This document shows positions 7,562 to 16,476 of a stretch of 64,000 bases of DNA, in pieces. The stretch lies in assembly GCF_027924665.1 (NCBI RefSeq), contig NZ_AP027043.1, positions 434,001 through 498,000 on the forward strand, read 5' to 3'. Source of the DNA: Flavobacterium sp. GSB-24 (GTDB lineage Bacteria; Bacteroidota; Bacteroidia; Flavobacteriales; Flavobacteriaceae). Made by a program: the position numbers and the translations under genes. The notes beneath the pieces were generated by a model. The model saw nothing but the letters and a program-made list of their open reading frames with translations, ran no database searches and was not told where the DNA came from. Position 1 is the stretch's first letter, and each line of letters begins with the position of its first letter.

Positions 7562-8539
7562 TTATTTATTCATGGTTATTTCTTGCGTTTCAGTAACTGC
7601 TATTTTGGTAACTGCCGGCAATAATTCCTGAGTAAATGCTGTAATATGTGGAATATCCATTAACTTAAATTCATCTGAAACATGATGATAAAAATCGAAG
7701 TTTTCAAAATCGAAGGTACTTATGGATTGGCATGGTTTTCCAAAAGCCTGAAAAAAAGAATAATTATCAGATCTATAAAACAATTGATATTCTGCTTCTT
7801 TTGGCAAAAATCCGATTGTCTTTTTTCCTGTGTATTCATTTATTTTATCTGCCATATTCGATTTATCAAAACCTGTAATATAAGCTAGATAATCTCTTTT
7901 CATCGGCACACCAATCATTTCGATATTTAATTGCGTGTAAAGATTAAAATTCTGTTTTTTCAATTTTTCAACTAAACTTTTTGAACCCAGCAGACCTTTT
8001 TCTTCTCCAGCAAAAAATACGACTAAAATACTTCTTTTATTAGATTTGGTTTCGCTAAAATATTTCGCCATCGCTGCAACAGAAGTCACACCCGAAGCAT
8101 CATCATTAGCTCCATTATTTATTTTATCTGCCTGTTCTTTTTTCTCTATACCAATATGATCGTAATGAGCACTTAAAACAACATATTCTTTTTTTAATTC
8201 TGGATCTGTTCCTTCAATAACTCCAACAATATTAAAGGCTGGGCTTTTAAAATTAGTCAACGTATCACGATAGGTTTTAAAATAGGGCTTGACATTATTT
8301 TTCTTTAAAAAATCTTCTAAAAATACGGCTGCTTTTTCAATTCCTTTAGTTCCTGTTTCACGTCCTTCCAATTCATCTGAAGAAAGATATTTTAAGAAAT
8401 CTGAAATTTCAGTTTCGCTGACTTTATAGTTAACCGCAATTGGTTTTGAATTTGACTGAGATCCTTTTTCAACCGTTGTTATAGTACTCGTTTTACAAGC
8501 TAAAAAAATAAAAGGAAGTAGAAAGTATAGTTTTTTCAT
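7562..8539 (-). CDS. M28 family zinc peptidase, lipoprotein
   Basis: A 325-residue aminopeptidase-like protein of the M28 family, probably anchored in the outer or inner membrane facing the periplasm. The start is placed at the ATG at 8539 because it opens a lipoprotein signal, MKKLYFLLPFIFLAC, with the lipid cysteine at residue 15; an open frame upstream to 8638 has no signal-peptide character. Zinc ligands are visible as His125 and Asp127 (SAHYDHIG), Asp146 (NGANDDASG) and Glu179-Glu180 (FAGEEKGLLGS), with Glu207 where many relatives have Asp. It likely removes N-terminal amino acids from peptides. It runs in the same direction as the acyl-CoA dehydrogenase but is separated from it by a terminator at 8629. 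Confidence 0.85.
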   Translation of the reverse strand: MKKLYFLLPFIFLACKTSTITTVEKGSQSNSKPIAVNYKVSETEISDFLKYLSSDELEGRETGTKGIEKAAVFLEDFLKKNNVKPYFKTYRDTLTNFKSPAFNIVGVIEGTDPELKKEYVVLSAHYDHIGIEKKEQADKINNGANDDASGVTSVAAMAKYFSETKSNKRSILVVFFAGEEKGLLGSKSLVEKLKKQNFNLYTQLNIEMIGVPMKRDYLAYITGFDKSNMADKINEYTGKKTIGFLPKEAEYQLFYRSDNYSFFQAFGKPCQSISTFDFENFDFYHHVSDEFKLMDIPHITAFTQELLPAVTKIAVTETQEITMNK

Positions 8540-8628
8540 AATATTTTGGTGTAGAATTAGTATTGAAAAAGAATGAGATTTACTTGAAAGCATAAACTTA
8601 TGAAAACTAAAAGAATAATCATAAAAAA

Positions 8629-8656
8629 ACCCTTTCAAACTAAAAGCAGAAAGGGT
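8629..8656 (-). terminator. Terminator of the acyl-CoA dehydrogenase gene
   Basis: ACCCTTTC (8629-8636) and GAAAGGGT (8649-8656) pair; on the minus strand the stem is followed by a run of T, 24 bases after the stop at 8680. Confidence 0.8.
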
Positions 8657-8679
8657 ATTTAAATATATGTATCGAAAAT

Positions 8680-9822
8680 CTATCCAGCAATAACTGCTCT
8701 TGAAATTACAATTTTTTGAATTTCTGAAGTTCCTTCGTAAATCTGGGTAATTTTTGCATCACGCATCATACGCTCAACATGATACTCTTTTACGTATCCG
8801 TTTCCACCATGAATTTGAACTGCTTCTACGGCTGTATCCATGGCAACTTGTGAAGCAAATAATTTTGCCATTGCACCACTTACATCGTAATTTTTATTTT
8901 GATCTTTATCCCAAGCCGCTTTCATACATAGATGACGTGCTGCTTCGATATTAACAGCCATATCTGCCAATTTAAAAGCAATTGCTTGGTGATTGCAGAT
9001 TTCTGTTCCAAATGCTTTACGTTCTTTAGAATATTTTAATGCTAATTCATAAGCTCCAGATGCAATTCCTAATGCTTGAGAAGCGATACCAATTCTACCT
9101 CCGGCGAGAGTCTTCATTGCAAATTTAAATCCGAAACCATCTTCTCCAATTCTATTTTCTTTCGGAACTTTTACATCAGAAAACATTAGCGAATGTGTAT
9201 CAGAACCACGTATTCCCATTTTTTGCTCTTTAGGACCAACTGAGAAACCTGGCATATCTTTAGTCATAATCAAAGCATTAATTCCTTTATGCTTTAATTC
9301 AGGATGTGTTTGTGCAATTACTAAATAAACCGATGCTGTATTTCCGTTTGTTATCCAGTTTTTAGTTCCGTTTACCAAATAATGGTCTCCCATATCAATT
9401 GCCGTTGTTTTTTGAGAAGTGGCATCACTTCCTGCTTCTGGCTCACTTAAACAAAAAGCCCCGTGAATTTCTCCAGATGCCAAACCTGGCAAATATTTTT
9501 GTTTCTGTTCTTCTGTACCAAATTCCTGCAATCCCCAGCAAACCAAAGAATTGTTTACTGACATCACTACTGAAGCAGATGCATCAACTTTAGAAATTTC
9601 TTCCATTGCAATAACGTATGAAATAGCATCCAAGCCGCTTCCGCCATATTTAGGATCAACCATCATTCCCATAAAACCTAATTCTCCCATTTTCTTTACT
9701 TGCTCTGTTGGAAAAATTTGTTTTTCGTCGCGTTCAATAACTCCTGGCAGTAATTCATTTTGAGCAAAATCTCTTGCTGCCTGCTGAATCATTAAATGTT
9801 CTTCGGTAAGATTAAAATCCAT
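8680..9822 (-). CDS. Acyl-CoA dehydrogenase (short-chain type)
   Basis: A 380-residue FAD-dependent acyl-CoA dehydrogenase that introduces a trans-2,3 double bond into acyl-CoA and hands electrons to ETF. Length and sequence match the short-chain/butyryl-CoA group: AFCLSEPEAGSDA for FAD and substrate binding, WITNGNTASVYLV, GIASQALGIASGAYELALKYSKERKAFG, and IHGGNGYVKEYHVERMMRDAKITQIYEGTSEIQ, in which Glu363 of YEGT is the catalytic base. It is a single-gene unit with its own promoter (9929-9959) and terminator. It could act on butyryl-CoA or on branched-chain acyl-CoAs; chain length is not decided by the sequence. Confidence 0.93.
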   Translation of the reverse strand: MDFNLTEEHLMIQQAARDFAQNELLPGVIERDEKQIFPTEQVKKMGELGFMGMMVDPKYGGSGLDAISYVIAMEEISKVDASASVVMSVNNSLVCWGLQEFGTEEQKQKYLPGLASGEIHGAFCLSEPEAGSDATSQKTTAIDMGDHYLVNGTKNWITNGNTASVYLVIAQTHPELKHKGINALIMTKDMPGFSVGPKEQKMGIRGSDTHSLMFSDVKVPKENRIGEDGFGFKFAMKTLAGGRIGIASQALGIASGAYELALKYSKERKAFGTEICNHQAIAFKLADMAVNIEAARHLCMKAAWDKDQNKNYDVSGAMAKLFASQVAMDTAVEAVQIHGGNGYVKEYHVERMMRDAKITQIYEGTSEIQKIVISRAVIAG

Positions 9823-9928
9823 AGTAGTTTACTTTAAATGTTTTTCAACCAAAAAATAATGCATTTTAGTTGATGATGTTAGTTTTGTTTTTGTTTTTTC
9901 GGAGCCTGAATTTTTAATTCAAGGCTTC

Positions 9929-9959
9929 CAAAGATACTTTTTAAAAGTCAATTTTACAA
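9929..9959 (-). promoter_or_regulatory. Promoter of the acyl-CoA dehydrogenase gene
   Basis: On the minus strand there is TTG (9957-9959), a 20-base spacer, and TATCTTTG (9929-9936), a full match to the Flavobacterium -33 TTG / -7 TAnnTTTG pattern. It would give a leader of about 100 bases. The remaining divergent spacer up to 10309 holds no gene, and I found no matching promoter for the plus-strand gene at 10310. Confidence 0.65.
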
Positions 9960-10309
9960 TGCACGCATATAAAATTAATAGATCTACAAAGATAACGATA
10001 ACGTTTTCGTAATAATTTAGGTTTTCTTTCAAATGAGCATTAATATTGCAGCAAATTTTCTAAAATTTAAAATTCAAATTCTCCCATTTAAATCGAAAAA
10101 ACAACGAAAAAATCGACAAATCTTCCCGAAAGAAAGATTAAACAATCCTTAAAATACGTAAAACTACGTAAAATATCTCTTACTAATTTGATTTTTAATA
10201 CTATACAAATTTCAAATGAAATCTTTTCTCGAAAAAAACATTCTCTACATACATCAAAAATTGACAAATTAGCATTATTTTTACCCAAAAAATAAAAAAT
10301 TGACAGAAC

Positions 10310-10885
10310 ATGAAAAAGATTTTACTATTACTTACTCTCCTTTTAAGCTTACAATTTTCGACCGTTTCGGCACAAACCCAAATCGATGTTAATGGTGTAA
10401 CAGTTCCTAGAAAAATAGAATATCAGGGTAAAACATTACAACTTAATGGAGCAGGCGGAAGATCAAAAATGTGGTTAGAAGTTTACGTGCAAGCACTGTA
10501 TTTATCTCAACTAAGTCAAGATCCTCAATTTATTATTGATAGCGACACAGAAATGGCTATCAGAATTGAAATTACATCTTCTATGGTTTCTTCTAATAAA
10601 TTAACAAAAGCCATGAATGCAGGTTTTGAAAAATCTGCTGGTGCAAATCTTGACCAACTTCGTCCTCGAATTGAAACTTTCAAGTCATTTTTAAGCGATG
10701 CTATTACAGAAAAAGATGTGTTTATATTAGCTTACAATCCGCTTGATCAAACTTTAAATGTTTATAAAAATGAAGTTTTAAAGGGAAAAATCCAGGGATT
10801 TGATTTCAAAAAAGCATTATTTGGAATCTGGCTTTCTGATAAACCAGTTGATGAAACTTTGAAAAAGAATTTATTAGGAATGTAA
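10310..10885 (+). CDS. Secreted chalcone-isomerase-like protein
   Basis: A 191-residue exported protein with a clear signal peptide (KKILLLLTLLLSLQF, cleavage near VSA-QT at about 22). The mature part matches the bacterial chalcone-isomerase-like family: VNGVTVPRKIEYQGKTLQLNGAGGRSKMWLEVYVQALYLS at the front, then MAIRIEITSSMVSSNKLTKAMNAGFEKSA and FLSDAITEKDVFILAY. Plant chalcone isomerases share this open-faced fold, but the bacterial secreted relatives have no proven flavonoid activity and may bind lipids or fatty acids. It stands alone with a terminator at 10908. The family call is fairly sure; the function is unknown. Confidence 0.8.
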   Translation: MKKILLLLTLLLSLQFSTVSAQTQIDVNGVTVPRKIEYQGKTLQLNGAGGRSKMWLEVYVQALYLSQLSQDPQFIIDSDTEMAIRIEITSSMVSSNKLTKAMNAGFEKSAGANLDQLRPRIETFKSFLSDAITEKDVFILAYNPLDQTLNVYKNEVLKGKIQGFDFKKALFGIWLSDKPVDETLKKNLLGM

Positions 10886-10907
10886 TTTCCAAAATAGAAT
10901 ATAATAT

Positions 10908-10946
10908 TAAAGCCGAAAGCAATTTGTTTTCGGCTTTATTTTTTGT
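10908..10946 (+). terminator. Terminator of the chalcone-isomerase-like gene
   Basis: TAAAGCCGAAA (10908-10918) pairs with TTTCGGCTTTA (10928-10938), followed by a T-rich stretch. Confidence 0.85.
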
Positions 10947-11025
10947 TTTATAAATTTGGATCCAAATACATTATTCTCATTATTCTATTTTATACATTTA
11001 CACAAAATAAACATATCACAACAAA

Positions 11026-12252
11026 ATGAAAGATTTATTACAACAATTTGAAAACAAGGCACCTGAAATTGTTTTCAATTGGAAAGATTCAGAAACAGAA
11101 GCCGAAGGGTGGACTGTTATTAATTCACTTCGTGGAGGAGCTGCGGGTGGAGGAACAAGAATGAGAAAAGGTTTAGACATGAACGAAGTTTTGTCACTGG
11201 CTAAAACTATGGAAGTTAAATTCTCTGTTTCCGGCCCTGCAATTGGCGGTGCTAAATCTGGAATAAATTTTGACCCGAACGATCCGCGTAAAAAAGGTGT
11301 TTTGCAGCGTTGGTACAAAGCGGTTTCTCCTTTATTAAAAAGTTACTACGGAACTGGAGGAGATTTAAATGTTGACGAGATTCACGAAGTTATTCCGATG
11401 ACAGAAGAATGTGGTGTTTGGCATCCGCAGGAAGGTGTTTTCAACGGACATTTTAAACCAACTGAAGCTGATAAAATCAACAGAATTGGTCAATTACGTC
11501 AAGGTGTAATTAAAGTTATTGAAAACCCAAAATTCTCACCAGACGTTACACGAAAATATACAGTAGCAGATATGATTACTGGTTTTGGTGTTGCAGAAGC
11601 GGTTCGTCATTTTTACGCGACTTATGGCGGAGACATAAAAGGTAAAAAAGCAATCGTTCAAGGTTTTGGAAATGTAGGTTCTGCAGCAGCTTTTTATTTA
11701 GCTGAAATGGGAGCAAAAGTTATCGGAATTATTGACCGCGACGGCGGATTGATTAAAGAAGAAGGTTTTTCTTTTGAAGAAATCAGATCTTTGTTTTTAA
11801 ATAAAGACGGAAATAAATTAGTTGCCGATAATATGATTCCGTTTGAAGAGATTAATTCTAAAATCTGGACTATCGGTGCTGAAATCTTCACTCCTTGTGC
11901 CGCTTCAAGATTGGTAACTCAAACTCAAATTGACAGCTTAATTGCAAATGGATTAGAAGTTATTTCTTGCGGTGCAAATGTTCCTTTTGCTGATAAAGAA
12001 ATTTTCTTTGGTTCTATTATGGAAGAAGTAGATCATAAAGTAAGTTTGATCCCGGATTTTATTTCAAACTGCGGAATGGCGAGAGTTTTCGCTTATTTCA
12101 TGGAGAAAAAAGTTCAAATGACAGACGAAGCTATTTTTAACGATACTTCTGAAATTATAAAAAATGCGATTGTAAAAGCTCACGCTTTGAATTCGTCAAA
12201 AACAAATATTAGTGCAACTGCTTTTGAAATTGCATTGAAACAATTAGTGTAG
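11026..12252 (+). CDS. Glu/Leu/Phe/Val dehydrogenase family protein
   Basis: A 408-residue NAD(P)-dependent amino-acid dehydrogenase that interconverts an L-amino acid and its 2-oxo acid plus ammonia. The N-terminal domain has GGAAGGGTRMRKGLD and MEVKFSVSGPAIGGAKSGI with the two key lysines Lys65 and Lys77; the Rossmann domain has GFGNVG at 213-218 and an acidic residue after strand 2 (IIDRDG, Asp237), which suggests NAD. It is nearer in length to leucine dehydrogenase (about 360-430) than to hexameric glutamate dehydrogenase (about 450), and the substrate pocket cannot be read with certainty. It is monocistronic, with a terminator at 12271. Confidence 0.88.
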   Translation: MKDLLQQFENKAPEIVFNWKDSETEAEGWTVINSLRGGAAGGGTRMRKGLDMNEVLSLAKTMEVKFSVSGPAIGGAKSGINFDPNDPRKKGVLQRWYKAVSPLLKSYYGTGGDLNVDEIHEVIPMTEECGVWHPQEGVFNGHFKPTEADKINRIGQLRQGVIKVIENPKFSPDVTRKYTVADMITGFGVAEAVRHFYATYGGDIKGKKAIVQGFGNVGSAAAFYLAEMGAKVIGIIDRDGGLIKEEGFSFEEIRSLFLNKDGNKLVADNMIPFEEINSKIWTIGAEIFTPCAASRLVTQTQIDSLIANGLEVISCGANVPFADKEIFFGSIMEEVDHKVSLIPDFISNCGMARVFAYFMEKKVQMTDEAIFNDTSEIIKNAIVKAHALNSSKTNISATAFEIALKQLV

Positions 12253-12270
12253 TTTTCTATTATAATATTA

Positions 12271-12302
12271 AAAGGATCAAATTTAAATTTGGTCCTTTTT
12301 TT
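12271..12302 (+). terminator. Terminator of the amino-acid dehydrogenase gene
   Basis: The arms 12271-12284 and 12285-12298 pair over 14 bp with one G-T pair, and a T tract follows. Confidence 0.8.
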
Positions 12303-12314
12303 GTTTCTCGTAGA

Positions 12315-12677
12315 TTTTTTAACGCAAAGCACGCTAAGATAGTTTAATTCACAGCGCAAGCAATATCTAAATATTAAGTTCGCAAAGCTTAGTGTAAATC
12401 TAGCTTTGCGAACTTAATCGGAGATTTGCTCAAATTTGAGATAAATTAAACTTTGCGTTTCTTTGCGCAAATCTTTGCGAACTTTGCGTTATAATTACAA
12501 GCCTTTTTTTAACGCAAAGCACGCTAAGATAGTTTAATTCACAGCGCAAGCAATATCTAAATATTAAGTTCGCAAAGCTAGATTTACACAAAGCTTTGCG
12601 AACTTAATCGGAGATTTGCTAAAATTTGAGACAAATGAAACTTTGCGTTTCTTTTCACAAATCTTTGCGAACTTTGA
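12315..12677. repeat. Tandem 190-bp repeat with hairpins (CTTTGCG family)
   Basis: Two copies, 12315-12487 and 12505-12677, lie exactly 190 bases apart and are nearly identical. Each begins with AACGCAAAG; copy 1 ends in CTTTGCGTT and copy 2 in the altered CTTTGAGGT. Each contains a 17-bp perfect hairpin: arms 12373-12389/12402-12418 in copy 1 and 12563-12579/12592-12608 in copy 2. The 12-base loops are reverse complements of each other at 11 of 12 positions, so the loop has been flipped in one copy. No coding sequence is evident here. Confidence 0.9.
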
Positions 12678-12761
12678 GGTCAAATTCTCTCGCACATTCT
12701 AAACAATTTTTAGTACTTTTAAACGTTTTTAAAATAATACATTTCAAAATTCAGAATCAAA

Positions 12762-13664
12762 ATGAGTTCCACTATTTCTTCAGATCAAAAGAAATCATTA
12801 CTACTCACCACAGCAATATATGCTGTACTAATTCTATTGCTTTTATTCATACGTTTTTGGCCTCCTTATAATCCAGAAAATAATGTAGCACTTGCAGATG
12901 GCGGCGGAGGTGGCGGTGGCGTTACTGTAAATTTTGGCGATAGTGATCTTGGTTCTGGTGCTAATTATAAAAGTGAAGTTCTGGATGTTAAAAACAATAT
13001 AAAACAAGCACCTGCAAAATCAACTCCAGAAGAAGCTATTATTACGCAGGAAAATACAACTACAGATAATGACGTCGTAATTCCAACAAAAGAAAAGCCT
13101 AAGAAACCTGTCCCAGTTGAAAAACCTGTACAAAAACCTGTTCCTGAAAAACCAAAAGTTTCTAATTCGACAAACGATGCACTAGCAAGCATTATGAAAG
13201 GTTCAAATAAAGGTGGTGACGGAGATGATAAAGCAGCTGGAAATAAAGGAAAAGCCAACGGAAGCTTAAACTCTAACGGTTATTATGGAAGTGGTGGTTC
13301 TGGCGGAGGAACTGGAGGCGGTAACGGAACTGGAAGTGGTATCGGCTCAGGAAGCGGTTACGGAGCTGGAAGCGGCGGTGGTTCTGGCGGTGGATCTGGA
13401 TATTCTTTAAACGGACGAAAGGCATTATCTAAACCTGCTCCAAAATATACTTGCAATGAAGAAGGAAAAGTGGTTGTAGAAGTTACTGTTGATCAAAACG
13501 GAAAAACGATAAGCGCTACAGCTGGAGTAAAAGGAACAACCAACACTGCAAGTTGTTTATTAGAACAAGCTAAAATTGCAGCATTAAACACAAAATGGTC
13601 GGCAGATGCAAATGCTGCAGCCAAACAAGTGGGAAAAATTATTTATAATTTTAGTTTGGATTAA
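12762..13664 (+). CDS. TonB-like energy transducer protein
   Basis: A 300-residue protein with the plan of TonB: a short cytosolic N-terminus, one membrane helix (about residues 13-30, LLLTTAIYAVLILLLLFIRF), a long low-complexity periplasmic linker, and a C-terminal domain. The linker holds Gly runs (DGGGGGGGV), a Lys/Pro-rich part (KEKPKKPVPVEKPVQKPVPEKPK) and a Gly/Ser-rich part (about 180-220). The last 80 residues (KPAPKYTCNEEGKVVVEVTVDQNGKTISATAG) resemble a TonB C-terminal domain with two cysteines. It faces an exbD-exbB pair, which likely energises it. Low sequence complexity makes homology calls hard, but the layout is clear. Confidence 0.75.
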   Translation: MSSTISSDQKKSLLLTTAIYAVLILLLLFIRFWPPYNPENNVALADGGGGGGGVTVNFGDSDLGSGANYKSEVLDVKNNIKQAPAKSTPEEAIITQENTTTDNDVVIPTKEKPKKPVPVEKPVQKPVPEKPKVSNSTNDALASIMKGSNKGGDGDDKAAGNKGKANGSLNSNGYYGSGGSGGGTGGGNGTGSGIGSGSGYGAGSGGGSGGGSGYSLNGRKALSKPAPKYTCNEEGKVVVEVTVDQNGKTISATAGVKGTTNTASCLLEQAKIAALNTKWSADANAAAKQVGKIIYNFSLD

Positions 13665-13704
13665 AACACGAATTGCACAGATTTACAAAAATTATAATTA
13701 ACAT

Positions 13705-13740
13705 AAAAAAGGCTTTCTGAAAATTCAGAAAGCCTTTTTT
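13705..13740 (+). terminator. Terminator of the TonB-like gene
   Basis: The arms 13705-13721 and 13724-13740 are perfectly complementary over 17 bp (AAAAAAGGCTTTCTGAA and its complement) and end in T6. Confidence 0.9.
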
Positions 13741-13769
13741 AGTTTCTATCTAATTACTTACAATTAGTT

Positions 13770-13873
13770 TGTCATCCTGAGCGAAGTCGAAGGACACGCA
13801 AGAAGCTCTACAAAGATTGGTGATTCTCCTTGAGGAATTACTTGTATGTCCTTCAACTTCGCTCAGGATGACA
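13770..13873. repeat. Palindromic repeat element, GTCATCCTGAGCGAAG variant
   Basis: The arms 13770-13796 and 13847-13873 pair at 26 of 27 bases and bracket a 50-base centre. The centre shares the pattern AGCTCnACAAAGATTGG and GGAnTTACTT with the elements at 44696 and 54645, although their outer arms differ. This marks one repeat family with exchanged arms. Confidence 0.8.
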
Positions 13874-13902
13874 TATTGTTATGTAAAATTTATGTTGTGT
13901 TT

Positions 13903-14014
13903 GCGTGAGGGATAGAAGCAAGCTACCGAAGTAGCGCGGATAGCCCGACCTCAATAAAAAAATGGGCGAATCAACATGATGATGATTTGCCCATTTTTTT
14001 ATTGGGGTCACGCC
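13903..14014 (-). ncRNA. Candidate structured RNA element, copy 1
   Basis: Read on the minus strand, the element opens with GGGCGTGA and closes with TCACGC, which pair. Within it, a very long hairpin (13947-13973 with 13983-14009, 27 bp with a few G-U pairs) is followed by GTCGGGCTATCC, a short hairpin GCTACTTCGGTAGC, and TTCTATCCCTCACGC. The same ends occur on the plus strand at 39691-39775 with a different middle hairpin. It could be an independent small RNA, a leader or a mobile palindromic element; comparison with Rfam Flavo-1 and other Bacteroidota motifs is needed before naming it. Confidence 0.5.
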
Positions 14015-14026
14015 CTAATTGTAAAT

Positions 14027-14422
14027 CTACTTCGGACTTGTCGCAATTACAAACTTTAAGTTGTTCTTCACTCCTATCTGCAAAACATCTACTAAATCTT
14101 GTACTTGCAAATTAAAAGGGATTCGAACAACAACTGTTTGTTCTTTATCTGTTCCAATTTTAGACATTAAACTTGTTTCCAGGTTTTCAAAATCAACCTC
14201 TTGTTTGTCAATGTAGAACTTTTTATCTTCTGTAACCGACAAACTAATTAATTGTTTATTGGTTTTTTCATTCGCTTTCGCTTTTGGCAATGTCATCTTA
14301 ATAACATTCGGATTTGCCAGTGTTGAGATAATTAAGAAAAACAACAGCAGGAAAAACATAATATCACTCAAAGATGAAGTCGCTACTTCGGCGTGAAATC
14401 TTCTTTTTCGTTTAATAGACAT
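14027..14422 (-). CDS. exbD: Biopolymer transporter ExbD
   Basis: A 131-residue ExbD/TolR family protein: short cytosolic N-terminus, one membrane helix at about 17-37 (SDIMFFLLLFFLIISTL) and a periplasmic domain that ends in KNNLKFVIATSPK. The Asp of SDIMFF at the start of the helix is in the position of the proton-conducting Asp of ExbD. The stop of exbB and this start are three bases apart, so they form one transcript exbB-exbD. They supply proton-motive force to a TonB-type protein, probably the convergent gene at 12762. A MotB/TolR role is possible but less likely. Confidence 0.88.
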   Translation of the reverse strand: MSIKRKRRFHAEVATSSLSDIMFFLLLFFLIISTLANPNVIKMTLPKAKANEKTNKQLISLSVTEDKKFYIDKQEVDFENLETSLMSKIGTDKEQTVVVRIPFNLQVQDLVDVLQIGVKNNLKFVIATSPK

Positions 14423-14425
14423 AGT

Positions 14426-15118
14426 TTATGCTCTTTGAATTATGTTGACAAATTCTAAAATCTGCTTTTGAATTTTTAAAGCAAAATCATCAATTTTTCC
14501 ATTTAATAAGTGGTAAGCACTATAAGCAATAATACCAACAATTAATCCAGAACCAGAACTGATCATTTTTTCATATAAACCTCCAGAAATGTTTCCGATA
14601 CTAATATTTTCTGTAACCGAAATACTATAGAAAATTTTAATTACCCCAGAAATTGTTCCGATGAAACCAAGTGTTGGCGCAATACCAGCGATAAGTCCAA
14701 GATGACCAAGACGTCTTTCCATTTCGCCAATTTCGATGTCTGCGGCGCGGTCCATGTTTGATTCGATTTCTGCAATTGGTCGTCCAATTACCAAAACTCC
14801 TTCTTTTAAAATATTTCCAGCAGCAGTATTATTTCTTTCTACAATTGTTCTTGCCAATTCAATATTTCCAGAATGCAATTTATCTCCAACATCCTGCATT
14901 AATCTGCCGTCAATTTTTGAAGCTCGGCTGATGTACATATAACGTTCAAAGATTACATAAATAGTATAAAACAATAGAATCGCAATCGGAATCAAGAAGA
15001 CTCCTCCTTTCATAATAAAGCCAAACATTGAAATTTCATTTTGCGGAGCGATCTTTTCGATCACTACATTTGAAGCCTGTGCGATTGTATCTGTTTGTAA
15101 TTGAATAAAACTAAACAT
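14426..15118 (-). CDS. exbB: MotA/TolQ/ExbB proton channel protein
   Basis: A 230-residue inner-membrane protein of the TolQ/ExbB family. It has a first helix (IMKGGVFLIPIAILLFYTIYVIF), a large cytosolic loop with the conserved DIEIGEMERRLGHLGLIAGIAPTLGFIGTISGVIKIFYSI run, and a last helix (GSGLIVGIIAYSAYHLL). Together with the downstream exbD it forms the proton channel that drives TonB. The divergent folC gene starts 131 bases away. A possible minus-strand promoter there (TTG then TATCTTTA) misses the final G of the consensus and is not claimed. Confidence 0.9.
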   Translation of the reverse strand: MFSFIQLQTDTIAQASNVVIEKIAPQNEISMFGFIMKGGVFLIPIAILLFYTIYVIFERYMYISRASKIDGRLMQDVGDKLHSGNIELARTIVERNNTAAGNILKEGVLVIGRPIAEIESNMDRAADIEIGEMERRLGHLGLIAGIAPTLGFIGTISGVIKIFYSISVTENISIGNISGGLYEKMISSGSGLIVGIIAYSAYHLLNGKIDDFALKIQKQILEFVNIIQRA

Positions 15119-15249
15119 ATATTAATTCTGGTTTTTAATAATTAATTCTAAAAAATATTTGAAATTTGCAATAAAGATAATTTTCGCTGTAATATTAAAC
15201 TACAAAAATCGAAATTTATTTCAATCAACAACCATTTTATCCAAAATAA

Positions 15250-16476
15250 ATGAACTATCAAGAGACTACCGAGTGGATGTTTGATCAACTTCCAATGTAC
15301 CAATTGCAAGGTGCTTCAGCATACAAAGAAGATTTGACTAATATTAAGTTATTAGCAGCTCACCTTGACAACCCTCAGGATCATTTGAAATGCATTCATG
15401 TTGCGGGTACAAACGGAAAAGGTTCTACTTCGCATATGCTTTCTTCGGTTTTACAGGAGGCAGGTTACAACGTAGGATTGTATACTTCTCCACACTTAAA
15501 AGACTTTAGAGAAAGGATTAAAATCAACGGAAGAGAAATTTCCGAAGATTTTGTCTGCGGATTCATTGCAAAGCACAAATCTTTTTTTGAAGCCAATGAT
15601 ATGAGCTTCTTCGAAATGTCGGTTGGATTGGCTTTTGATTATTTTGCAACTGAAAAAGTTGATATTGCTATTATTGAAGTTGGCCTTGGAGGAAGATTAG
15701 ACGCAACAAATATCATTACACCTTTGGTTTCGATAATTACCAATATAGGTTTAGACCACACGCAGTTTTTAGGAAACACATTGGAAGCGATTGCAGGTGA
15801 AAAAGCGGGAATTATTAAACCGAATGTTCCAGTTGTAATTGGAGAATATACCGAAGAAACCAAACCTGTTTTTTTAGCTAAAGCTGAAGAAAATAAAGCT
15901 CCTATCTATTTTGCATCTGATTTAATTGATCAAATTTATTTGTCTGACTTGGTTGGTGATTATCAATTCCACAATAAGAAAACGGTTCAGCAGACTATTT
16001 CAATTCTTAATAATGAAACTGATTTTAAGATTTCGAATGAAGAATTAAAACAAGGCTTGTTAAATGTTGTGAAAAATACTGGTTTACAAGGCAGATGGCA
16101 GCAATTGGGAGAGAACCCGAAAATAATATGTGACACTGCGCATAACAAACATGGATTAGAAGTTGTAATGAATCAGCTTAAAAAGGAAGCATTTGAAAAA
16201 CTTCATATTGTTTTCGGTGTTGTAAATGATAAAGACTTAGATTCTATTTTGCCACTTTTCCCAAAAGAAGCGCAATATTATTTTTGCCATCCAGATTCGT
16301 CACGGGCTTTGCCAGCCGAAACTTTACAAAGTGAAGCAAAAAAACACAATTTGATTGGAGAAAAATACGATTCTGTCGCCATCGCTTTCGCGGAAGCCAA
16401 AAAAAATGCTTCGGAAAATGATTTAATTTATGTTGGCGGAAGTACTTTTGTCGTTGCCGAATTGCCTTTGAACTAA
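15250..16476 (+). CDS. folC: Folylpolyglutamate synthase / dihydrofolate synthase
   Basis: A 408-residue Mur-ligase-fold enzyme that adds L-glutamate to dihydropteroate and to tetrahydrofolates, using ATP. The P-loop GTNGKGST is at residues 53-60, followed by YTSPHLKDFRERIKINGREI, which is typical of FolC, GLGGRLDATNI, TNIGLDHTQFLG, the catalytic EKAGIIKP segment, and GRWQQLGENPKIICDTAHNKHGLE in the C-terminal domain. It is full length for the family. It sits divergently from exbB-exbD and has no visible partner gene in folate synthesis here. Confidence 0.95.
   Translation: MNYQETTEWMFDQLPMYQLQGASAYKEDLTNIKLLAAHLDNPQDHLKCIHVAGTNGKGSTSHMLSSVLQEAGYNVGLYTSPHLKDFRERIKINGREISEDFVCGFIAKHKSFFEANDMSFFEMSVGLAFDYFATEKVDIAIIEVGLGGRLDATNIITPLVSIITNIGLDHTQFLGNTLEAIAGEKAGIIKPNVPVVIGEYTEETKPVFLAKAEENKAPIYFASDLIDQIYLSDLVGDYQFHNKKTVQQTISILNNETDFKISNEELKQGLLNVVKNTGLQGRWQQLGENPKIICDTAHNKHGLEVVMNQLKKEAFEKLHIVFGVVNDKDLDSILPLFPKEAQYYFCHPDSSRALPAETLQSEAKKHNLIGEKYDSVAIAFAEAKKNASENDLIYVGGSTFVVAELPLN

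Follow-up and report, generated by a model that had tools for sequence, protein, structure and literature searches.

Between a dehydrogenase gene and a gene for a glycine-rich protein, Flavobacterium sp. GSB-24 carries two tandem copies of an intergenic repeat whose hairpins share the same arms but have loops facing in opposite directions. The arrangement raises the question of which loop was turned round, whether this happened in place, and by what process. The window analysed here is the whole 64,000-nucleotide stretch that contains the repeat, and positions without a contig name are numbered within it.

The tandem repeat and its genomic setting

The repeat consists of two 182-bp units on the forward strand, unit 1 at 12315..12496 and unit 2 at 12505..12686, which are 91% identical and spaced 190 bp apart. 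An earlier reading of the sequence alone placed the pair at 12315..12677. The tandem 190-bp spacing stands; however, units of 182 bp at that spacing put the end of the second copy at 12686. The hairpin of unit 1 is composed of a left arm at 12373..12389 (ATTAAGTTCGCAAAGCT), a loop at 12390..12401 (TAGTGTAAATCT) and a right arm at 12402..12418 (AGCTTTGCGAACTTAAT). In unit 2 the left arm lies at 12563..12579 (ATTAAGTTCGCAAAGCT), the loop at 12580..12591 (AGATTTACACAA) and the right arm at 12592..12608 (AGCTTTGCGAACTTAAT). The 17-bp arms are identical between units and 100% complementary within each hairpin, and the DNA folds have energies of -16.9 kcal/mol (z -8.9) for unit 1 and -17.2 kcal/mol (z -8.7) for unit 2.

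The two 12-nt loops are reverse complements of each other at 11 of 12 positions, while both units keep the same direction outside the arms. Direct comparison of the units therefore confirms what the sequence-only reading had described on both counts. For a single given pair of AT-rich 12-mers, the chance of such a match is approximately 7.5e-6. As a control, 11 unrelated hairpin loops of 12 nt from this genome were combined into 55 pairs; none reached 11 of 12, the best having 9.

The source genome is 5.35 Mb in two contigs. The upstream gene (11026..12252, forward strand) encodes a Glu/Leu/Phe/Val dehydrogenase (Pfam PF00208) and is separated from the repeats by a terminator-like hairpin (12270..12299, forward strand). 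The downstream gene (12762..13664, forward strand) adjoins ExbD/ExbB genes and encodes a glycine-rich protein, TonB-like by appearance only, for which Pfam gives no match at E 0.001. This protein was used to fetch the corresponding region from 80 named relatives, all of them Flavobacterium or Flavobacteriaceae.

The repeat belongs to the ordinary hairpin elements that are scattered between genes in Flavobacterium. There are at least 33 BLAST match rows for this first family in the genome (40 of 113 candidates scored); three of the 33 fall on the query position, and both strands are matched at some places. The exact 10-bp inner arms occur in 13 hairpins of the source genome, both array hairpins included. 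The 24-nt ends of unit 1 form terminal inverted repeats (83% complementary), as in a MITE. Like REP/MITE-like intergenic palindromic elements, the Flavobacterium element is short, non-coding, dispersed and palindromic; it differs in having no demonstrated link to a transposase. A RAYT/REP origin was considered and rejected, as neither of the two Y1-transposase genes in the genome (loci L167 and L168) has such a hairpin within about 1.5 kb. We also rejected an Rfam identity: with E up to 1 there are 20 matches, but every one is far below its gathering score, and most are to microRNA models that fit a hairpin.

Which loop was turned round

An array of four tandem units occupies the matching place in the same-species strain Flavobacterium sp. 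Root935 (locus L072), and the same array is present in G230, a genome of this species that apparently comes from that strain. In order, the Root935 loops are TTGTGTACATCT, TGGTGTAAATCT, TTGTGTACATCT and TAGTGTAAATCT, all four in the direction of unit 1. Single units in F. chungbukense and F. tistrianum carry the loop TTGTGTACATCT, also in this direction. With the unit 1 direction found in the nearest relatives, unit 2 is the derived, flipped copy, which backs the earlier proposal that a loop had been flipped between its inverted arms. That proposal left room for a chance match should the other copies of the family carry unrelated loops. The nearest copies have matching loops; however, distant species have other loops at the matching place, some of them reversed-looking, and the ancestral state is for that reason taken from the nearest relatives only.

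The last of the four array units aligns collinearly with the right flank of unit 2. When the unit 2 loop is turned back in silico it reads TTGTGTAAATCT, and the alignment score against this counterpart (R4) is 180, compared with 166 for unit 2 as it stands. The single mismatch between the window loops (TT versus TA) falls at a site where units already differ from one another; it means that the loop of unit 2 before the flip differed from that of unit 1. The third unit of the Root935 array (L072:2614-2653) has matched arm changes, A to G on the left and T to C on the right, and these may have been left by arm copying in the process that flips loops.

We searched the source genome (G000) and G230 for the loop with an 18-nt pattern covering the loop and the arm ends, allowing up to three mismatches. 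Outside the array, neither genome holds a copy with fewer than three mismatches. Matches with zero or one mismatch occur only in each genome's own array, and three-mismatch matches also arise from a reversed-pattern control. With no such donor outside the array, the flip appears to have occurred in place.

Loop direction at other hairpins

Eleven of the 13 hairpins with the exact inner arms lie outside the array, and six of these have a perfect-arm counterpart in G230. Five of the six keep the loop direction (L036-L040 versus L199, L198, L197, L196 and L190, at syntenic places, with loops read by eye). The sixth, a single-copy hairpin at G000:C1:4171843 (hairpin 4171854 in the scan described below), is exactly inverted (12/12) relative to G230:C6:219799. 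Its loop reads TAATCCCATAAT in G000 and ATTATGGGATTA in G230, between collinear flanks that are 94% identical over 1.6 kb. No other match to this loop with fewer than two mismatches exists in G000 or G230, the nearest having two mismatches in 16.

A systematic scan covered 706 kb of alignment between G000 and G230, in two collinear block pairs with identities of 96.8 and 98.2%. It started from 391 perfect G000 hairpins (minimum arm length 9 bp, loops 3-30 nt), a few of which overlap one another; 53 have no ortholog, 67 have altered arms, and 271 are comparable. Among the comparable loops 208 are the same, 43 are substituted, 13 have changed length and seven are inversion-like. At arms of at least 14 bp (n=36), 29 loops are the same, four have changed length, three are inverted and none is substituted. 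The corresponding numbers are 47, seven, three and seven at arms of 11-13 bp (n=64), and 132, two, one (weak) and 36 at arms of 9-10 bp (n=171).

Among loops that changed but kept their length, the ratio of inverted to substituted is 3:0 at arms of at least 14 bp versus 1:36 at arms of 9-10 bp (Fisher p 0.0004). Block 1 was selected for holding the already known flip 4171854, which introduces a selection bias. With this hairpin left out, the ratios are 2:0 versus 1:36 (p 0.004), or 1:0 versus 0:35 if only loops of at least 8 nt are counted (p 0.028); as a share of all loops, inversions make up 5/99 at arms of at least 11 bp versus 1/171 at arms of 9-10 bp (p 0.026). The effect thus grows with arm length, although the numbers are small and uneven between the two blocks (inverted at arms of at least 14 bp, 3/15 in block 1 and 0/21 in block 2).

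The clear inversions in the scan are 4171854 (12/12) and 4256499. The latter has 21-bp arms (AAGCTCCAGAGGAGCGACATA) unrelated to the array arms, and its 19-nt loop matches at 18/19 positions reversed versus 6/19 forward. Hairpin 3225477 is a moderate case (11/14 reversed versus 8/14 forward), and 4034677, 3438878, 4154784 and 4300399 are inversion-like with short or ambiguous loops. For AGCC/GGCT the inversion reading also equals two substitutions, and the inversion criterion is reached by 84 of 1146 unrelated loop pairs of 3-4 nt versus 4 of 1210 pairs of 12-30 nt. At array unit 2, C1:4171843 and 4256499 the loop corresponds to the reverse complement of the ancestral loop between flanks of unchanged direction. 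Independence from arm sequence is indicated by one clear flip (4256499) and one moderate one (3225477), the others having the CGCAAAG core or being ambiguous. Another long-arm hairpin family, AGCTCCAG(A/C)GGAGCGACATA with 17-19-nt loops, is represented by G000:C1:4256499 and 4346826, one flipped and one not between G000 and G230.

In other species the matching intergenic space holds a different hairpin element, here called the second family, whose AT-rich loop faces one way or the other with respect to the element's own flanks. The CGCAAAG core in the arms is common to the first and second families. Loci L084 and L095 share an identical 45-nt left flank, and their loops are exactly reversed. 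Orientation was scored on both flanks at 25 loci caught among the 80 fetched. After L111 (loop collapsed), L112 and L137 (orientation margin 0-1) were dropped, the 22 scored loci comprise 16 forward, L109 among them on a weak loop score, and six flipped (L085, L095, L096, L115, L143 and L147). Four loci stand outside this count; by eye L093 looks flipped, and L113, L136 and L151 look forward.

On a tree of the neighbouring DNA these directions require six changes, at least five of them forced by starred branches, with L147 on a long branch. The flipped and forward labels cluster no more than shuffled labels do. Some of the loci may be separate insertions and not in-place flips. Searching the genus with a pattern for the second family yielded eight matches in 8 of 199 genomes, outside these counts. 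For the first family 20 matches were found in 13 of 398 genomes, reversed-looking loops included, and no direction count is given because several loops are nearly palindromic. Locus L182 (G042:C1 around 1480500-1481250) is an array of at least four units whose loop, TTATCCAGACAA, looks reversed compared with other species that have the same left flank; we are unsure of this reversal, as the loops are partly palindromic.

Origin of the inversion and comparison with known systems

Based on these comparisons, the 12-nt loop of unit 2 was probably turned round where it stands, between 17-bp arms that pair perfectly, by template switching during replication. This would be a side effect of the long perfect hairpin and not the work of a dedicated switch. 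At the first arm the nascent strand would switch to the other, complementary strand and copy the loop backwards. A switch back at the second arm would leave the loop turned round, and the arms as well, though invisibly. We infer the strand switch itself from the pattern. The sequence-only reading had offered recombination across the hairpin or template switching; the latter fits better, and a dedicated invertible site fits less well, mainly since a hairpin with unrelated arms has flipped too. It counts against template switching that most long hairpins keep their loop (29/36 at arms of at least 14 bp), and that the arms depart wholly from the CGCAAAG type in a single clear flip.

The same end product would result if a cruciform or hairpin were extruded, cut at the arms and ligated again with the loop in the opposite direction, a form of hairpin-processing repair with no polymerase switch. 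The great stability of the arms when folded single-stranded is in keeping with this route. However, we found nothing positive in its favour, similar cases in yeast and in rRNA genes are ascribed to template switching in the accounts cited (PMC8604942, PMC8794818), and we consider it unlikely.

Inversion of the loop by a site-specific recombinase that recognises the arms is very unlikely. Inverted arms of 17 bp are similar in length to recombinase sites, but a 12-bp spacer is too short for pairing two duplex sites. The CGCAAAG arm core is common to most flips here, and many invertible promoters are described in Bacteroidales (PMC8748976). However, the quite different arms of 4256499 show, on one clear case, that the flips do not share a single arm sequence, and none of the eight neighbouring proteins scanned (window positions 7562-16476) has a recombinase domain. 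Taken together, the flip at unrelated arms, the shortness of the loops and the influence of arm length favour template switching at the hairpin over a recombinase.

Still less likely is gene conversion, with an inverted copy at another genomic site as the source of the loop direction. In its favour, members of the element family are scattered through the genome and match on both strands; however, import is disfavoured by the searches of G000 and G230 described above, both for the array loop and for the loop of C1:4171843. Least probable of all is an assembly or sequencing artefact: tandem repeats and palindromes are error-prone, but the assembly is in two contigs, its units can be told apart since about 9% of positions differ, the independent flip at C1:4171843 is exact and in single-copy sequence, and flips recur across separately sequenced species.

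There is no sign of a regulatory switch or of loop direction mattering to the cell. A promoter switch was considered and rejected; promoter-like matches number eight against a shuffle mean of 1.7, but the consensus is generic and no direction-dependent effect was shown. It is conceivable, if doubtful, that long-arm intergenic hairpins of Flavobacterium flip back and forth and are polymorphic within a culture, forming genome-wide, reversible, enzyme-free binary sites that possibly tune the neighbouring transcript.

Loop flipping is a known class of mutation, and it is clear and recurrent in this genus. No report of it in Flavobacterium intergenic repeats was among the matches listed from the open-access literature. 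Among bacterial loop inversions the present case is unusually clean: a genome of the same species provides the reference, there is no close donor copy, and flips recur at further hairpins. Close pairs of Flavobacterium genomes could serve to measure how often flips arise in nature as a function of arm and loop length. In addition, clustered substitutions in hairpin loops can be one inversion event and could mislead estimates of divergence and recombination.

Several systems described elsewhere resemble the one reported here. In yeast, spacers are inverted by intermolecular template switching only where arms exceed 9 bp, according to the account in PMC8604942; there too the arms are kept, the spacer alone is reversed and the event recurs. 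However, the yeast cases described there are in coding genes with 2-5-bp spacers, whereas in Flavobacterium a bacterial repeat between genes is affected, and its hairpin has 17-bp arms around a 12-nt loop. In rRNA hairpins, bacterial cases among them, loops are likewise turned round on an unchanged stem, but as presented in PMC8794818 these loops are typically 4 nt, some 7-8 nt, and are under RNA-structure constraint. Quasipalindromes in E. coli are template-switch hotspots, discussed in the cited account mainly as arm correction (PMC7202029). The minute hairpin inversions of chloroplast trnH-psbA, reported as polymorphic within species and homoplasious (PMC2903610), are non-coding and similarly built: the arms measure at least 18 bp and the inverted part 25-27 bp. 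However, they concern a single locus in an organelle, while in Flavobacterium the inversion affects a dispersed repeat family.
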